Source: Nitrosopumilaceae archaeon (GTDB taxonomy: Archaea; Thermoproteota; Nitrososphaeria; Nitrososphaerales; Nitrosopumilaceae). Taken from it: a stretch of DNA of 32,266 nt. The notes under the pieces were generated by a model. That model was not told the origin of the DNA. It saw nothing but the letters and a program-made list of their open reading frames with translations, and did not search any database. The position numbers were made by a program, and so were the translations under genes. How positions within the stretch are numbered: the first letter of the stretch is position 1; each line of letters begins with the position of its first letter. Positions 2,292 through 8,801 of this stretch are shown here, piece by piece. The stretch spans positions 1-32,266 of the forward strand of contig JASHOW010000072.1 of the NCBI GenBank assembly GCA_030038445.1, read 5' to 3'.

Positions 2292-2951
2292 GTGCGCTTA
2301 GTGGCGTTTGTATCTAGTACGACTCTTGAGATAGCTCTTAACTTGCTAGGATTTGTTGTTGGACTTGTATTAGGCACTTTTTCATATATTGGATTTAAGA
2401 ATACTGGAAGTCCAACATTGTTTAGGCTAAACATTTCCTTCTTTTCAATTGGGATAGGCTTTGGGGTAGTTGGATTTGGATACATGATAGAGTCATTCAT
2501 ACTAAACTATGCCCAGATTGATAGTTGGATTCAGACGCTTGGAATAGGTATTCAAACTGTAGGGTACTTTTTTATTGCATTTTCACATGGTATCAAATCA
2601 TTTTTTCCAAAATCGCGATATTTCAAATCGATAATATTTCCACTTTTTATCATACCTGGAAACTCAATTGAGCATATTATAAGGTCAATTTCTTTTATCC
2701 TATTGGTATATGGGACGATTGAAACCATTATGTCGTATATGGAGAATAGGAAGAGAAGTACGGTCTTCGTTGCCGCAGGGCTTGGATTACTTGCCTTGGG
2801 CGAATTCCTAGGTTGGTATTCAATCATATTTCCCAAATCAATACTCTATTTCGTCTCGCTTTCTACAAAGATAGTAGGACTTGGCGCCCTATTCATACCA
2901 ATATCTCAAGTTCCCTTAAGAGGAGGTATAAAATTTGGTGGTAGCGTATAG
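2292..2951 (+). CDS. Polytopic integral membrane protein
   Basis: 219 aa, about 7 hydrophobic segments; 3' end overlaps the following wHTH gene. Confidence 0.65.
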   Translation: MRLVAFVSSTTLEIALNLLGFVVGLVLGTFSYIGFKNTGSPTLFRLNISFFSIGIGFGVVGFGYMIESFILNYAQIDSWIQTLGIGIQTVGYFFIAFSHGIKSFFPKSRYFKSIIFPLFIIPGNSIEHIIRSISFILLVYGTIETIMSYMENRKRSTVFVAAGLGLLALGEFLGWYSIIFPKSILYFVSLSTKIVGLGALFIPISQVPLRGGIKFGGSV

Positions 2952-3225
2952 AACCCACATGAGTATCATAGGTGACATCCTCTCAACCACTAGAGATGAG
3001 GCTCCTGACGAGTCTGGTGCAAGTGTAACATACCTAATACGAAAAGCCAATGTCTCATATGGACGACTAGCAAAAATATTGGAAACGTTAGTCCAACAGG
3101 GGCTTTTAGAACAAAGTACATCAGACAGAGCCTGCAAATACAAGATCAGTACTAGGGGTAGAGAGTTTCTACAGGCATACCGTGGATTTAGAGAATTTGC
3201 CGACTCTTTTGGATTAAGAATTTAG
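2938..3225 (+). CDS. Winged-helix transcriptional regulator (ArnR1-like)
   Basis: VVAYRTHMSIIGDIL...LIRKANVSYGRLAKILETLVQQGLLEQ...KYKISTRGREFLQAYRGFREFADSFGL; AGGAGGT about 10 nt upstream of GTG at 2938; paralogous to 9786..10067. Confidence 0.75.
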   Translation: MVAYRTHMSIIGDILSTTRDEAPDESGASVTYLIRKANVSYGRLAKILETLVQQGLLEQSTSDRACKYKISTRGREFLQAYRGFREFADSFGLRI

Positions 3226-3569: not shown

Positions 3570-4169
3570 ATGAACATGCCCTGTGATCATAATGGAATCA
3601 TTATGGCATACAATACAGTCAGAAAAGGTGGTATCGTGATTTTTCCCACAGATACTGTATATGGCATAGGATGCGATCCATTTAATGACAAGGCCGTACG
3701 AATGATTTACAGAATCAAGGGACGAGAGGGATCAAAACAACTTCCCGTTCTTGGATTTTCCATCTATGAGATATCAAAGATAGCAGTTTTTGATAAACTT
3801 TCAGAAAAATTTGCTACAAAGTTCTGGCCAGGGCCATTAACACTGATTCTTGACGTAAAAGAGGAGAGGATTGCAGAATCACTGGGGCTTGATAAAAAGA
3901 TAGCAGTACGTGTACCCAGCCATCCATGTACGTTAAAACTGCTCAAAGAATGCAAGTTGCTTGTTGGAACAAGCGCTAATCTTTCCGGTCATCCTCCTGC
4001 AGCAGATCCGAAGGAGATAATTGAAAAATTAGAGGGATACGACATACTCTTGGATGGAGGAAAGATACTAGATCCTGTGGAATCTACCATTGTTGAAGTC
4101 ATGGGGGATAGATTTCGCATAGTACGCCAAGGAAAAATCAGTGAAGAGGAGTTGCTTGCGCTGACTTGA
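3570..4169 (+). CDS. L-threonylcarbamoyladenylate synthase (Sua5/YciO/YrdC family)
   Basis: GGIVIFPTDTVYGIGCDPFN, RIKGREGSKQLPVL, WPGPLTLIL, VRVPSHP, GTSANLSGHPPA. Confidence 0.93.
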   Translation: MNMPCDHNGIIMAYNTVRKGGIVIFPTDTVYGIGCDPFNDKAVRMIYRIKGREGSKQLPVLGFSIYEISKIAVFDKLSEKFATKFWPGPLTLILDVKEERIAESLGLDKKIAVRVPSHPCTLKLLKECKLLVGTSANLSGHPPAADPKEIIEKLEGYDILLDGGKILDPVESTIVEVMGDRFRIVRQGKISEEELLALT

Positions 4170-4687
4170 ACCTGATTGTAACTTGCAGTCGCAATTTTGA
4201 GGAAGAAGCATCTGATGAGATTTTGAATATTTTCCAAGTTTTAGGAGACAATGAAGTTGTAGTAGAAAACAGTAATTTTTCTGGCATAGTTGTAGTTAAT
4301 ACGTTTCTAGACCCCTTTCAAGCAGTAAGTAAGATTAGAATGAAGATTCTTGACGAACCTTGGAGCGTGAGATATTGCCACAGATTCATACCAATCCAAG
4401 AATCTATTGGCACTGGACTTGATGAGATAGTGCAGGCAGTGCAAAAACATGTTAATGATATGCAGCCAAGTGATTCTTATCGAATTACAATCAAGAGACG
4501 CGATTCTGAACTACCTTCCACAGAGATAATTGATGCCATTGCAAAGATTGTGAAAAATAAAGTGTCTCTTGAGAAATACGACTGGAATATCATAGTTGAG
4601 ATTCTTGGAGACATAGTTGGTGTCTCGGTGCTAAAAGAACAGGATATAATAAGCACCCTAAAACTAAAGCGCGATTCAATGGAGTAA
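4166..4687 (+). CDS. THUMP-domain protein (Tan1-like, RNA binding)
   Basis: Starts at an overlapping TTG; NLIVTCSRNFEEEASDEIL...FIPIQESIGTGLDEIVQAVQKHV...YRITIKRRDSELPSTEIIDAIAKIVKNKVSLEKYDWNIIVEILGDIVGVSVLK is THUMP-like. Confidence 0.8.
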   Translation: MNLIVTCSRNFEEEASDEILNIFQVLGDNEVVVENSNFSGIVVVNTFLDPFQAVSKIRMKILDEPWSVRYCHRFIPIQESIGTGLDEIVQAVQKHVNDMQPSDSYRITIKRRDSELPSTEIIDAIAKIVKNKVSLEKYDWNIIVEILGDIVGVSVLKEQDIISTLKLKRDSME

Positions 4688-5455
4688 GACTGCAGATTTT
4701 TCAGCCAAAAGATCCTCAAGCGGCTCTTTTGATATTATGCAGTCAAGTTCTTTCTTTGTTATCTTGAATTCTTTTTTTATGAAATTAGTGTTATCAGGAA
4801 ATGGTATGACTGGTTTTAACATTGGATTGATCTCGGCAACAAGTTTGCCAATTAGAGACTTTTTCCCAATCATTATAAGAATTGAATCATTATCTGTTTG
4901 CAATCCTACTTTACTTATTGCTTCGCTGATCTGCCTACTGCATGCAAATCTCATAAGTATATCAGTTTCAATTTTATTAGAAAGCATTACACCAGACCTG
5001 CTTGCAGCCAGCGATATCTCAATGATCCGCCTTGCATGCTTTACGTTTAGCACATATTTTGATTTGACACCTTGAATGATAACATCCGGGAACCCAGTTC
5101 TCAGACTCTCAAGGAGTTGTATTGGATCAGTGCCGGTCTTTCCTAGTCTTACTACTTCAGCATTGTAACCTAGGATTCCAAGATCAATCCTTGTTTTGTT
5201 GCCCCCGTGTACTATTGGAATTATGCTAACGGTATCTCCATCCTTAAGTGATGTCTCGTTTCCTTGTAAAGCAGATGAATCCACGCCATTTATGGCCACA
5301 AGAATATTCTGCACATCAAACGCTGGCATGTTTTTTGGAACAGAATTCTGAAGAAATACAAGCAGATCAGATACAGTCATGATATTCTTTTCAATTGATA
5401 TACTATCAGACAAGAAAGATCTCTTGGTACCGCCTAGAAGTTTTACTGTTATCAT
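4676..5455 (-). CDS. MoaD/ThiS-like beta-grasp domain fused to a Cgi121-like KEOPS subunit
   Basis: N-terminal VKLLGG...LLVFLQ...ILVAINGVD...LKDGDTVSIIPIVHGG (beta-grasp ending in GG at aa 84-85); C-terminal HARRIIEISLAASRSGVMLSNKIETDILMRFACSRQISEAISKVGL resembles Cgi121. Confidence 0.72.
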   Translation of the reverse strand: MITVKLLGGTKRSFLSDSISIEKNIMTVSDLLVFLQNSVPKNMPAFDVQNILVAINGVDSSALQGNETSLKDGDTVSIIPIVHGGNKTRIDLGILGYNAEVVRLGKTGTDPIQLLESLRTGFPDVIIQGVKSKYVLNVKHARRIIEISLAASRSGVMLSNKIETDILMRFACSRQISEAISKVGLQTDNDSILIMIGKKSLIGKLVAEINPMLKPVIPFPDNTNFIKKEFKITKKELDCIISKEPLEDLLAEKSAVLLH

Positions 5456-5516: not shown

Positions 5517-5774
5517 TTAGCTGACTAGCTGTTCTTCCATCTCTTCGGTTTCTTCCACATGCTCTGGCTGCAGAGCCAATGACTCTTTCTCCTGTTGCTC
5601 CTCAAGATCTCTTCTCAAATGAGAAGTAATGTAACCCGCAATCTCATTTTTTAGTCCCTTTGACCTAACGACTGCGACTTCATCAAGTATCTTCTTATTT
5701 TGTTTAAAGTCAATGCCGAATTTTCCCTTATAAGCATCCATTAATTCCGTGGAAATTCGTCTGACTCTATTCAC
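5517..5774 (-). CDS. Ribosomal protein eS17
   Basis: NRVRRISTELMDAYKGKFGIDFKQNKKILDEVAVVRSKGLKNEIAGYITSHLRR matches the S17e pattern. Confidence 0.85.
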   Translation of the reverse strand: MNRVRRISTELMDAYKGKFGIDFKQNKKILDEVAVVRSKGLKNEIAGYITSHLRRDLEEQQEKESLALQPEHVEETEEMEEQLVS

Positions 5775-7046: not shown

Positions 7047-8801
7047 TTGGCCGATAGAAATAATGGATTGCTAGAATACATACCTGGTGCAAGACCGCTT
7101 TTACAACAATCATCCAATGGGCAACCACTGGAAGGGTTTGCTCAAAACATACGAGATAGCGTAAGAGAGTATGCAGAAGACGCACAAAATGAGATTGAAA
7201 AAGGCCATAATTTTCTCCAATGGGTACTTACCAGAGTATTTGAGGCAACAGAAGATGACGCCACAGACGCAATAATTGATGGCCCCAATGATTTGGGCAT
7301 AGACGCATATCTGCCAGTGGATTTTTCTGAAGACAAGATCTATCTTTTCCAGTCAAAATATGGAACTTCGCATTCTATGGAAGCCATTGCCAAATTTAGA
7401 CAGGATGTGCAGAATTTACGCATCAAAGACATCACAAAGATGCGGCCTGAGATTGCCCATCTGGTAACACAAATTCAAGAAAAAAATCTAAAGATTGAGT
7501 GTGTTTATGTTACTGATCAAAAAGTAGATAATGAAAGTTACGAGTCTGTTGACATATACGATATAGATGTAATAATCCAAAAACTTTGGGACAGAATAAA
7601 AAAACCTGCAGTGGGCAAAAAGGCTACAATAAGACTGGAGAGCAAGCTAAGATATCAGGATACTCTGCTTGGGATCCTGAAGCTAAGGGAGTTGACTAAT
7701 TTTGTTACCAAAAACAGGGATTATGTTTTTGAATCCAACATAAGACAGTGGATGCAGTTCAAGACAACCGTAAACAAGGGCCTACGTGAGACATTACAGG
7801 AATCACCTAACAAGTTCTTCTACTATAACAACGGCATAACCATAGTCGTAAATGGCTTTGAAGAACTAGAGGATAACTCTATACTTTTGCATGCACCACA
7901 GATAGTAAATGGTGCACAGACATCTAATTCCGTATTAGATCATGCAAAACGAACCCATAACTTGGAAGGAAGTATAACAGTCACCATAATCAAGGCCGCC
8001 GACGAGATGGACCAGAATAACATTACAAAGTATAGGAATTCCCAAAATGCAGTAAGGGGAAAGGATCTGGTTTCGTTAATGGACTTTCACAAATCAATCA
8101 AATCCCAGATGGAGAATTTCAGGTATTTTTATGAGATACAGGCAGGTTCATTTGATAGCAAGACAAAGTCCCAGCAATCTGAATTTATTGGAGATCCTAT
8201 ATACAACAAATATCTCCCTGACAATCACAAAAAAGTCATTGTTGGTAAGGATGCCATACAGGCCTTTGTGGCTGGAATTGAACAGAGACCTACTGAATCG
8301 TACAGCTCACCTGCACAATTCCTACCAAGAGGGAGCAAGTATGATGAAGTGTTCAATGAGAAGTTAAAAGATGATTATAGACTGTTATTGTATCCATATC
8401 TTGTAAAAGAATACGCAAAAAAAGTTTTGAATTATGGAAAGAAGGGAGGACACAAAACAAAAAGATATGCCACTCTATTTTTTGTTGCAGTTTATTTTAA
8501 AATCCTGCATGAAAAAATACTATGCACCAAGGTAGACTTTAAGGAGGATATTTCAAAGCTAGAGCCAGTCTTTAAGAGCATCAAACTGAACCAGCGAATT
8601 TTGAAGATCACAGATACTGTAGTAACAAAGTTTCTTGAAGATACAGTCGTTGATGATGAAATGACAGCTGCAAATACATATCACAATTTCTTCTCACACC
8701 ATGTCTGGTTAGATTCCATGATACGCGTAATTGACAAGAAGATAAAACAGGAAGAGGAAGACATTATTAATATTCAAACAATAGTACGTGATCTTTTCTA
8801 A
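7047..8801 (+). CDS. AIPR-family protein with a putative N-terminal PD-(D/E)XK-like nuclease region
   Basis: FFYYNNGITIVVNG...APQIVNGAQTSNSV is the AIPR signature; N-terminal NDLGIDAYLPVDFSEDKIYLFQSKYG resembles a D...QxK nuclease core. Confidence 0.82.
   Translation: MADRNNGLLEYIPGARPLLQQSSNGQPLEGFAQNIRDSVREYAEDAQNEIEKGHNFLQWVLTRVFEATEDDATDAIIDGPNDLGIDAYLPVDFSEDKIYLFQSKYGTSHSMEAIAKFRQDVQNLRIKDITKMRPEIAHLVTQIQEKNLKIECVYVTDQKVDNESYESVDIYDIDVIIQKLWDRIKKPAVGKKATIRLESKLRYQDTLLGILKLRELTNFVTKNRDYVFESNIRQWMQFKTTVNKGLRETLQESPNKFFYYNNGITIVVNGFEELEDNSILLHAPQIVNGAQTSNSVLDHAKRTHNLEGSITVTIIKAADEMDQNNITKYRNSQNAVRGKDLVSLMDFHKSIKSQMENFRYFYEIQAGSFDSKTKSQQSEFIGDPIYNKYLPDNHKKVIVGKDAIQAFVAGIEQRPTESYSSPAQFLPRGSKYDEVFNEKLKDDYRLLLYPYLVKEYAKKVLNYGKKGGHKTKRYATLFFVAVYFKILHEKILCTKVDFKEDISKLEPVFKSIKLNQRILKITDTVVTKFLEDTVVDDEMTAANTYHNFFSHHVWLDSMIRVIDKKIKQEEEDIINIQTIVRDLF

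Follow-up and report, generated by a model that had tools for sequence, protein, structure and literature searches.

The window analysed here, a stretch of 32,266 nucleotides from a Nitrosopumilaceae archaeon, raises the question of why a ubiquitin-like (Ubl) domain ending in Gly-Gly should stand directly in front of a subunit of the KEOPS complex within one reading frame. An earlier note on this DNA had offered two readings of this arrangement, a precursor that is cut behind the two glycines and a permanent link between the two halves. The frame, at 4676-5455 on the minus strand, is unbroken, starts with ATG and encodes 259 amino acids. Its parts and its closest neighbors are as follows:

5517-5774, minus strand: ribosomal protein eS17, directly upstream of the fusion (Pfam Ribosomal_S17e, E = 9.6e-18)
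5201-5455, minus strand: ubiquitin-like beta-grasp domain of Urm1/SAMP/ThiS type, residues 1-85 (Pfam and Foldseek)
5201-5209, minus strand: His-Gly-Gly motif, residues 83-85, at the domain junction, with a predicted cut after Gly85 (conservation and pLDDT dip)
4676-5200, minus strand: Cgi121 KEOPS-subunit domain, residues 86-259, and stop codon (Pfam, NCBIfam, Foldseek and CCA contacts)
4166-4687, plus strand: single-THUMP protein (Pfam THUMP, E = 4.3e-10)
3570-4169, plus strand: TsaC/Sua5-family threonylcarbamoyl-AMP synthase, the enzyme of the first t6A step and a convergent neighbor (TIGR00057 over its cut-off, E = 4.2e-49)

To identify the two halves, we compared the protein with sequence profiles and with known structures. 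Residues 12-85 match the Pfam ThiS profile (E = 4.5e-11), residues 2-85 the Pfam Urm1 profile (E = 4.6e-5) and residues 118-238 the Pfam CGI-121 profile (E = 8.1e-8), all of them above the curated cut-offs. Moreover, the NCBIfam model NF011465 ('KEOPS complex subunit Cgi121') matches the ORF with an E-value of 4.7e-33. An AlphaFold model built from 71 aligned fusions shows two folded domains with a mean pLDDT of 91.9 and a pTM of 0.68, the pLDDT falling to 69 over residues 81-90, i.e. at the HGG junction. In this model the Ubl is joined directly to its partner, as the Gly-Gly occupies residues 84-85 and the first Cgi121 strand begins at residue 89. A Foldseek search with the N-terminal half returned Urm1 of T. 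brucei (2k9x), SAMP1 (2l52), Urm1 of Sulfolobus (4wwm) and MoaD (1fm0), and the top matches of the C-terminal half were Cgi121 chains, including that of the tRNA-bound KEOPS complex 8up5. The ORF at 4676-5455 is a Urm1/SAMP-type beta-grasp domain joined directly to the KEOPS subunit Cgi121. The earlier note, made from the letters alone, had called a MoaD/ThiS-type Ubl, a Cgi121-like KEOPS subunit and a Gly-Gly buried between them; profiles and modelled folds bear out all three calls, and Urm1/SAMP fits the Ubl better as a label than MoaD/ThiS.

Cgi121 of M. jannaschii contacts the CCA end of tRNA through Phe21, Gln28, Lys56, Met60, Gln71, Ile72, Ile76 and Gly80 (PMC7718258). We mapped the seven from Gln28 to Gly80 onto 81 distinct fused proteins that are 27-72% identical to the window protein. 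Five of the seven mapped contacts are kept: the equivalents of Gln28, Gln71, Ile72, Ile76 and Gly80 are each present in at least 77 of the 81 fusions (Q128 in 80, Q175 and I176 in all 81, I180 in 77 and G184 in 79), and at the positions of Lys56 and Met60 N and T, respectively, predominate. A C-terminal half of non-KEOPS type is ruled out by the profiles, the Foldseek matches and these CCA contacts. Other parts of the t6A pathway are found in the same genome, namely TsaC and, close together on contig C130, Kae1 and Bud32. A second, free Cgi121 was not found in the genome searched.

The gene for eS17 neighbors the fusion in nearly every locus of the family with enough flanking sequence and is likely co-transcribed with it, as has been suggested before (PMC2948915). 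The THUMP gene, on the opposite strand, and the fusion gene share 12 bases at their 3' ends. The THUMP gene also overlaps that of TsaC by 4 bases, and it probably forms one operon with the latter. Across the family the order histone-TatD-eS17-Ubl-Cgi121 facing THUMP-TsaC is kept, which places two t6A genes side by side.

Two further features of the window were noted in passing. An AIPR-family protein, the name of which refers to abortive infection, is encoded at 7047-8801 on the plus strand (Pfam AIPR, E = 3.2e-55). Most loci of the family that have enough flanking sequence carry its gene next to that of the histone, at 70-95% identity, which gives it the appearance of a core gene and not of mobile defence. 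Beyond TsaC, at 2292-3225 on the plus strand, lies a pair that is also conserved in the family, comprising a membrane protein that weakly matches DUF7521 and, after it, a protein of winged-helix type (Pfam HTH_45, with a weak match to NCBIfam Sso10a).

To see how the fusion is distributed, we searched 201 genomes from the same class for homologues. The full-length fusion is present throughout the window's family, which includes named members such as Candidatus Nitrosotalea and Nitrosopumilus, bar a few shortened or frame-broken matches. In one of these, from a metagenome assembly of the window's own genus (G106; L031:561-660 / L093), the fusion is broken, apparently by one extra A in a run of A shortly after the Gly-Gly, either through a sequencing error or through a real recent break. 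In another (L078) the frameshift falls within the Ubl.

At the junction, His83, Gly84 and Gly85 are invariant in all 81 distinct fusions, and the next residue varies freely: S in 45, A in 11, R in 9, N and G in 4 each, K in 3, T in 2, and M, E and L in one each. Hence the window's HGG followed by N corresponds most commonly to HGG followed by S in its relatives. The mean entropy is 0.44 bits over residues 78-85 as opposed to 2.45 bits over residues 86-105, and the window's glycines 93, 96, 105 and 108 just past the junction are kept in 4-10% of the fusions. The earlier note had proposed the conservation of dyad and linker as a check; the dyad is conserved, and the linker after it drifts. None of the three outcomes that the note had named as speaking against its view was obtained. 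A chance ORF is ruled out by this conservation, given full-length homologues across the family and an invariant HGG. The motif is also retained in fusions from outside the family (L032-L034 and L045), which are placed apart on the tree.

In the other families, ubl and cgi121 are for the most part two genes standing next to each other, and often they share a frame that is interrupted by one or two stops. Most separate Ubls have HGG as their last residues before the stop codon, and some carry tails of one to five residues (e.g. S, CL, GN or SPKPA). In one genome (G070) ubl and cgi121 are located far from each other, so that a permanent linkage is not generally needed. Outside the class, 20 loci were drawn from a phylum-wide Cgi121 search; in four of them a Ubl gene immediately precedes cgi121, and in a fifth it lies a little farther upstream. 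A tree of 110 rows requires the fused label to change six times, in some cases because of two frame-broken records. The simplest reading is that a two-gene cluster would have been fused more than once, i.e. in the whole window family, in some members of a genus from another family and in L045, the last with an unsure position on this tree owing to long branches.

Such a history could suggest that the fusion arose by accidental loss of a stop codon and is neutral, each half working in place and the Gly-Gly being a mere flexible hinge. Where both ORFs share a frame one or two stops apart, as in several relatives, stop loss suffices to fuse them, and the repeated change of the label on the tree agrees with this. 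However, a hinge would not need an invariant His83 together with both glycines while the linker nearby drifts, and without a carrier function of this Ubl the cell's E1 would be left with only its own fused Ubl (see below). We therefore regard a neutral fusion as very improbable.

A second explanation holds that the chain stays whole as a bifunctional subunit, in which the Ubl serves as a docking or regulatory domain within KEOPS that, for example, recruits the E1, the thiolase or the proteasome, or regulates KEOPS by conjugation. Its fixation over a whole family and the several fusions on the tree speak for it, as does the fact that KEOPS and the thiolase both act on tRNA; moreover, an earlier study proposed for the fusion that SAMPylation regulates KEOPS or that there is a coordinated action (PMC2948915). 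The invariant His and both glycines next to an unconstrained linker argue against it, and relatives manage with separate, even distant, genes. The Gly-Gly could nevertheless be kept because an E1 or another partner recognises the tail even in an uncut chain, or because a hinge needs glycines.

We took inventory of Ubls in the window's genome (G000) and in six single-contig relatives (G040, G079, G003, G007, G044 and G022). The ThiS profile was applied to five family genomes (G079, G044 and G022 being left out), the Urm1 profile to eight and the archaeal MoaD profile to seven. Above noise, each genome has two Ubl domains, both internal in long frames: Ubl-Cgi121 and Ubl-E1. A free Ubl was not found by these profiles in the window's genome or in the six relatives. 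Weak matches with E-values of about 0.07-0.3, including a 73-residue frame in G044, were seen as well, and a highly divergent free Ubl could escape the profiles. The lack of a detectable free Ubl for carrier work weighs against an uncut chain, and so does the chemistry, as a Ubl needs an exposed C-terminal glycine for activation by its E1. Taken together, we consider the permanent link unlikely.

The enzymes that would use and release such a Ubl are present. The window's genome encodes one full-length MoeB/ThiF-type E1 of the ThiF family, which itself bears an N-terminal Ubl (L124:303-1619, minus strand, contig C1). The chain has an internal AGG with SELSSKELERYSRQ behind it. All family sequences inspected retain this AGG, and the Ubl-E1, a fusion reported before, is possibly a second internal-GG precursor. 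The genome also encodes a tRNA thiolase, for which NcsA and TtuA are the best-matching models. No MoaE was detected in eight family genomes tested, which makes a role of the Ubl in molybdopterin (Moco) synthesis unlikely. Furthermore, there are two Prok-JAB (JAMM) proteins in the window's genome, both with the catalytic motif HSHP-x6-S-x2-D, and each of 13 genomes tested has at least two. JAMMs are found also where ubl and cgi121 are separate, so that they do not follow the fusion in their distribution. In one genome of another family (G067) both Ubls are separate genes, at L223:1371-1673 (minus strand) and L224:650-931 (plus strand); they end in GGNSKGYGYG and GGCL, and thus seem to need C-terminal trimming too.

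With these data at hand, a cut after Gly85 is the simplest account of the locus, because no free Ubl was detected, an E1 and a thiolase are present, the HGG is invariant and the residue behind it is unconstrained. We consider it probable that the fusion is a precursor cut after the Gly-Gly by a JAMM protease, yielding a free Ubl and Cgi121. Of the two readings of the earlier note, the cleavable precursor is therefore favored over the permanent link, on account of the invariant HGG with its variable next residue, the free Ubl that was not found, JAMMs with catalytic motifs, the Ubls of relatives that usually end at the Gly-Gly, and the precedents described below. In detail, a JAMM/MPN+ protease would cut after Gly85 and free a Urm1/SAMP-like Ubl with a C-terminal Gly-Gly, which a MoeB/ThiF-type E1 would adenylate. 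The freed Ubl would then carry sulfur to the NcsA/TtuA-type tRNA thiolase and might also modify proteins. The freed Cgi121 would join Kae1-Bud32 and bring the 3' CCA end of tRNA to KEOPS for t6A formation. We infer the cut itself, the JAMM responsible and the role of the Ubl in tRNA thiolation, the last from gene content. The tryptic peptide that spans the junction is DGDTVSIIPIVHGGNK, and the semi-tryptic Ubl peptide that ends in HGG is DGDTVSIIPIVHGG.

Cleavage might also be partial, such that one part of the pool is cut for the sulfur-carrier pathway and the uncut rest couples KEOPS to the Ubl supply. This fits all sequence data, and MoaX has been seen both cut and uncut in a mycobacterial host; yet nothing in our data sets partial apart from complete cleavage, and we rate it as improbable. 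Going beyond this locus, we see an even chance that in Nitrosopumilaceae every Ubl sulfur carrier is made internally, as Ubl-Cgi121 or Ubl-E1, so that the whole Ubl pathway would depend on JAMM cutting after Gly-Gly, and one chain would yield the thiolation carrier and the t6A subunit at a fixed ratio of 1:1. Should the cut be real, an abundant group of ammonia-oxidising archaea would lack a genetically free Ubl and would have to process its precursors, which would give its JAMM proteases an essential maturation role. The supply of the tRNA-thiolation carrier would be tied to that of a t6A subunit, and the locus would be an archaeal parallel to the ubiquitin-ribosomal protein fusions.

The novelty that the earlier note had implied for the fusion does not hold, as the Ubl-Cgi121 fusion was reported in 2010 in all Thaumarchaea then known (Makarova & Koonin 2010, PMC2948915). 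As far as its passages on the fusion show, that protein shares architecture, lineage and eS17 neighbor with ours. A word search of the same paper shows no discussion of the fusion's Gly-Gly or its processing, and its passages on the fusion contain neither the missing free Ubl nor the separate-gene families described here. In the literature searched, no further paper on the fusion turned up. A MoaD-MoeB fusion in Thaumarchaeota appears in a 2024 survey of archaeal fusions, the main text of which mentions neither KEOPS nor Cgi121 (PMC11237513), and also in the 2010 study (PMC2948915). Like Ubl-Cgi121, this Ubl-E1 has an internal Ubl with a kept Gly-Gly; unlike it, the partner is the activating enzyme. 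The architecture is thus already known, and the evidence for cutting and the processing reading are new as far as the literature searched shows.

Precedents for the cut come from three systems. In MoaX of M. tuberculosis the cut falls between Gly82 and Ser83, and function requires it (PMC4326299); a Deinococcus JAMM cuts MoaD-MoaE (PMC8832034); and CsJAMM cuts the SAMP precursors of Caldiarchaeum (PMC6043591). MoaX and MoaD-MoaE of Deinococcus radiodurans resemble the window protein in that an N-terminal beta-grasp Ubl with a Gly-Gly is joined to a functional partner enzyme. However, the partner there is MoaE, a part of molybdopterin synthase, instead of a KEOPS subunit, and the cut is proven there and inferred here. 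The Ub and SAMP precursors of Caldiarchaeum, processed by CsRpn11/CsJAMM, share with our case an archaeal Ubl from which a JAMM removes the residues behind the Gly-Gly, but they lose a short tail (nine residues in CsUb), whereas here a folded KEOPS domain follows. Finally, the eukaryotic ubiquitin-ribosomal protein fusions carry an internal Gly-Gly in front of a translation-related protein, as is seen here, and differ in that they consist of ubiquitin, are cut by other proteases and have a ribosomal protein as partner.
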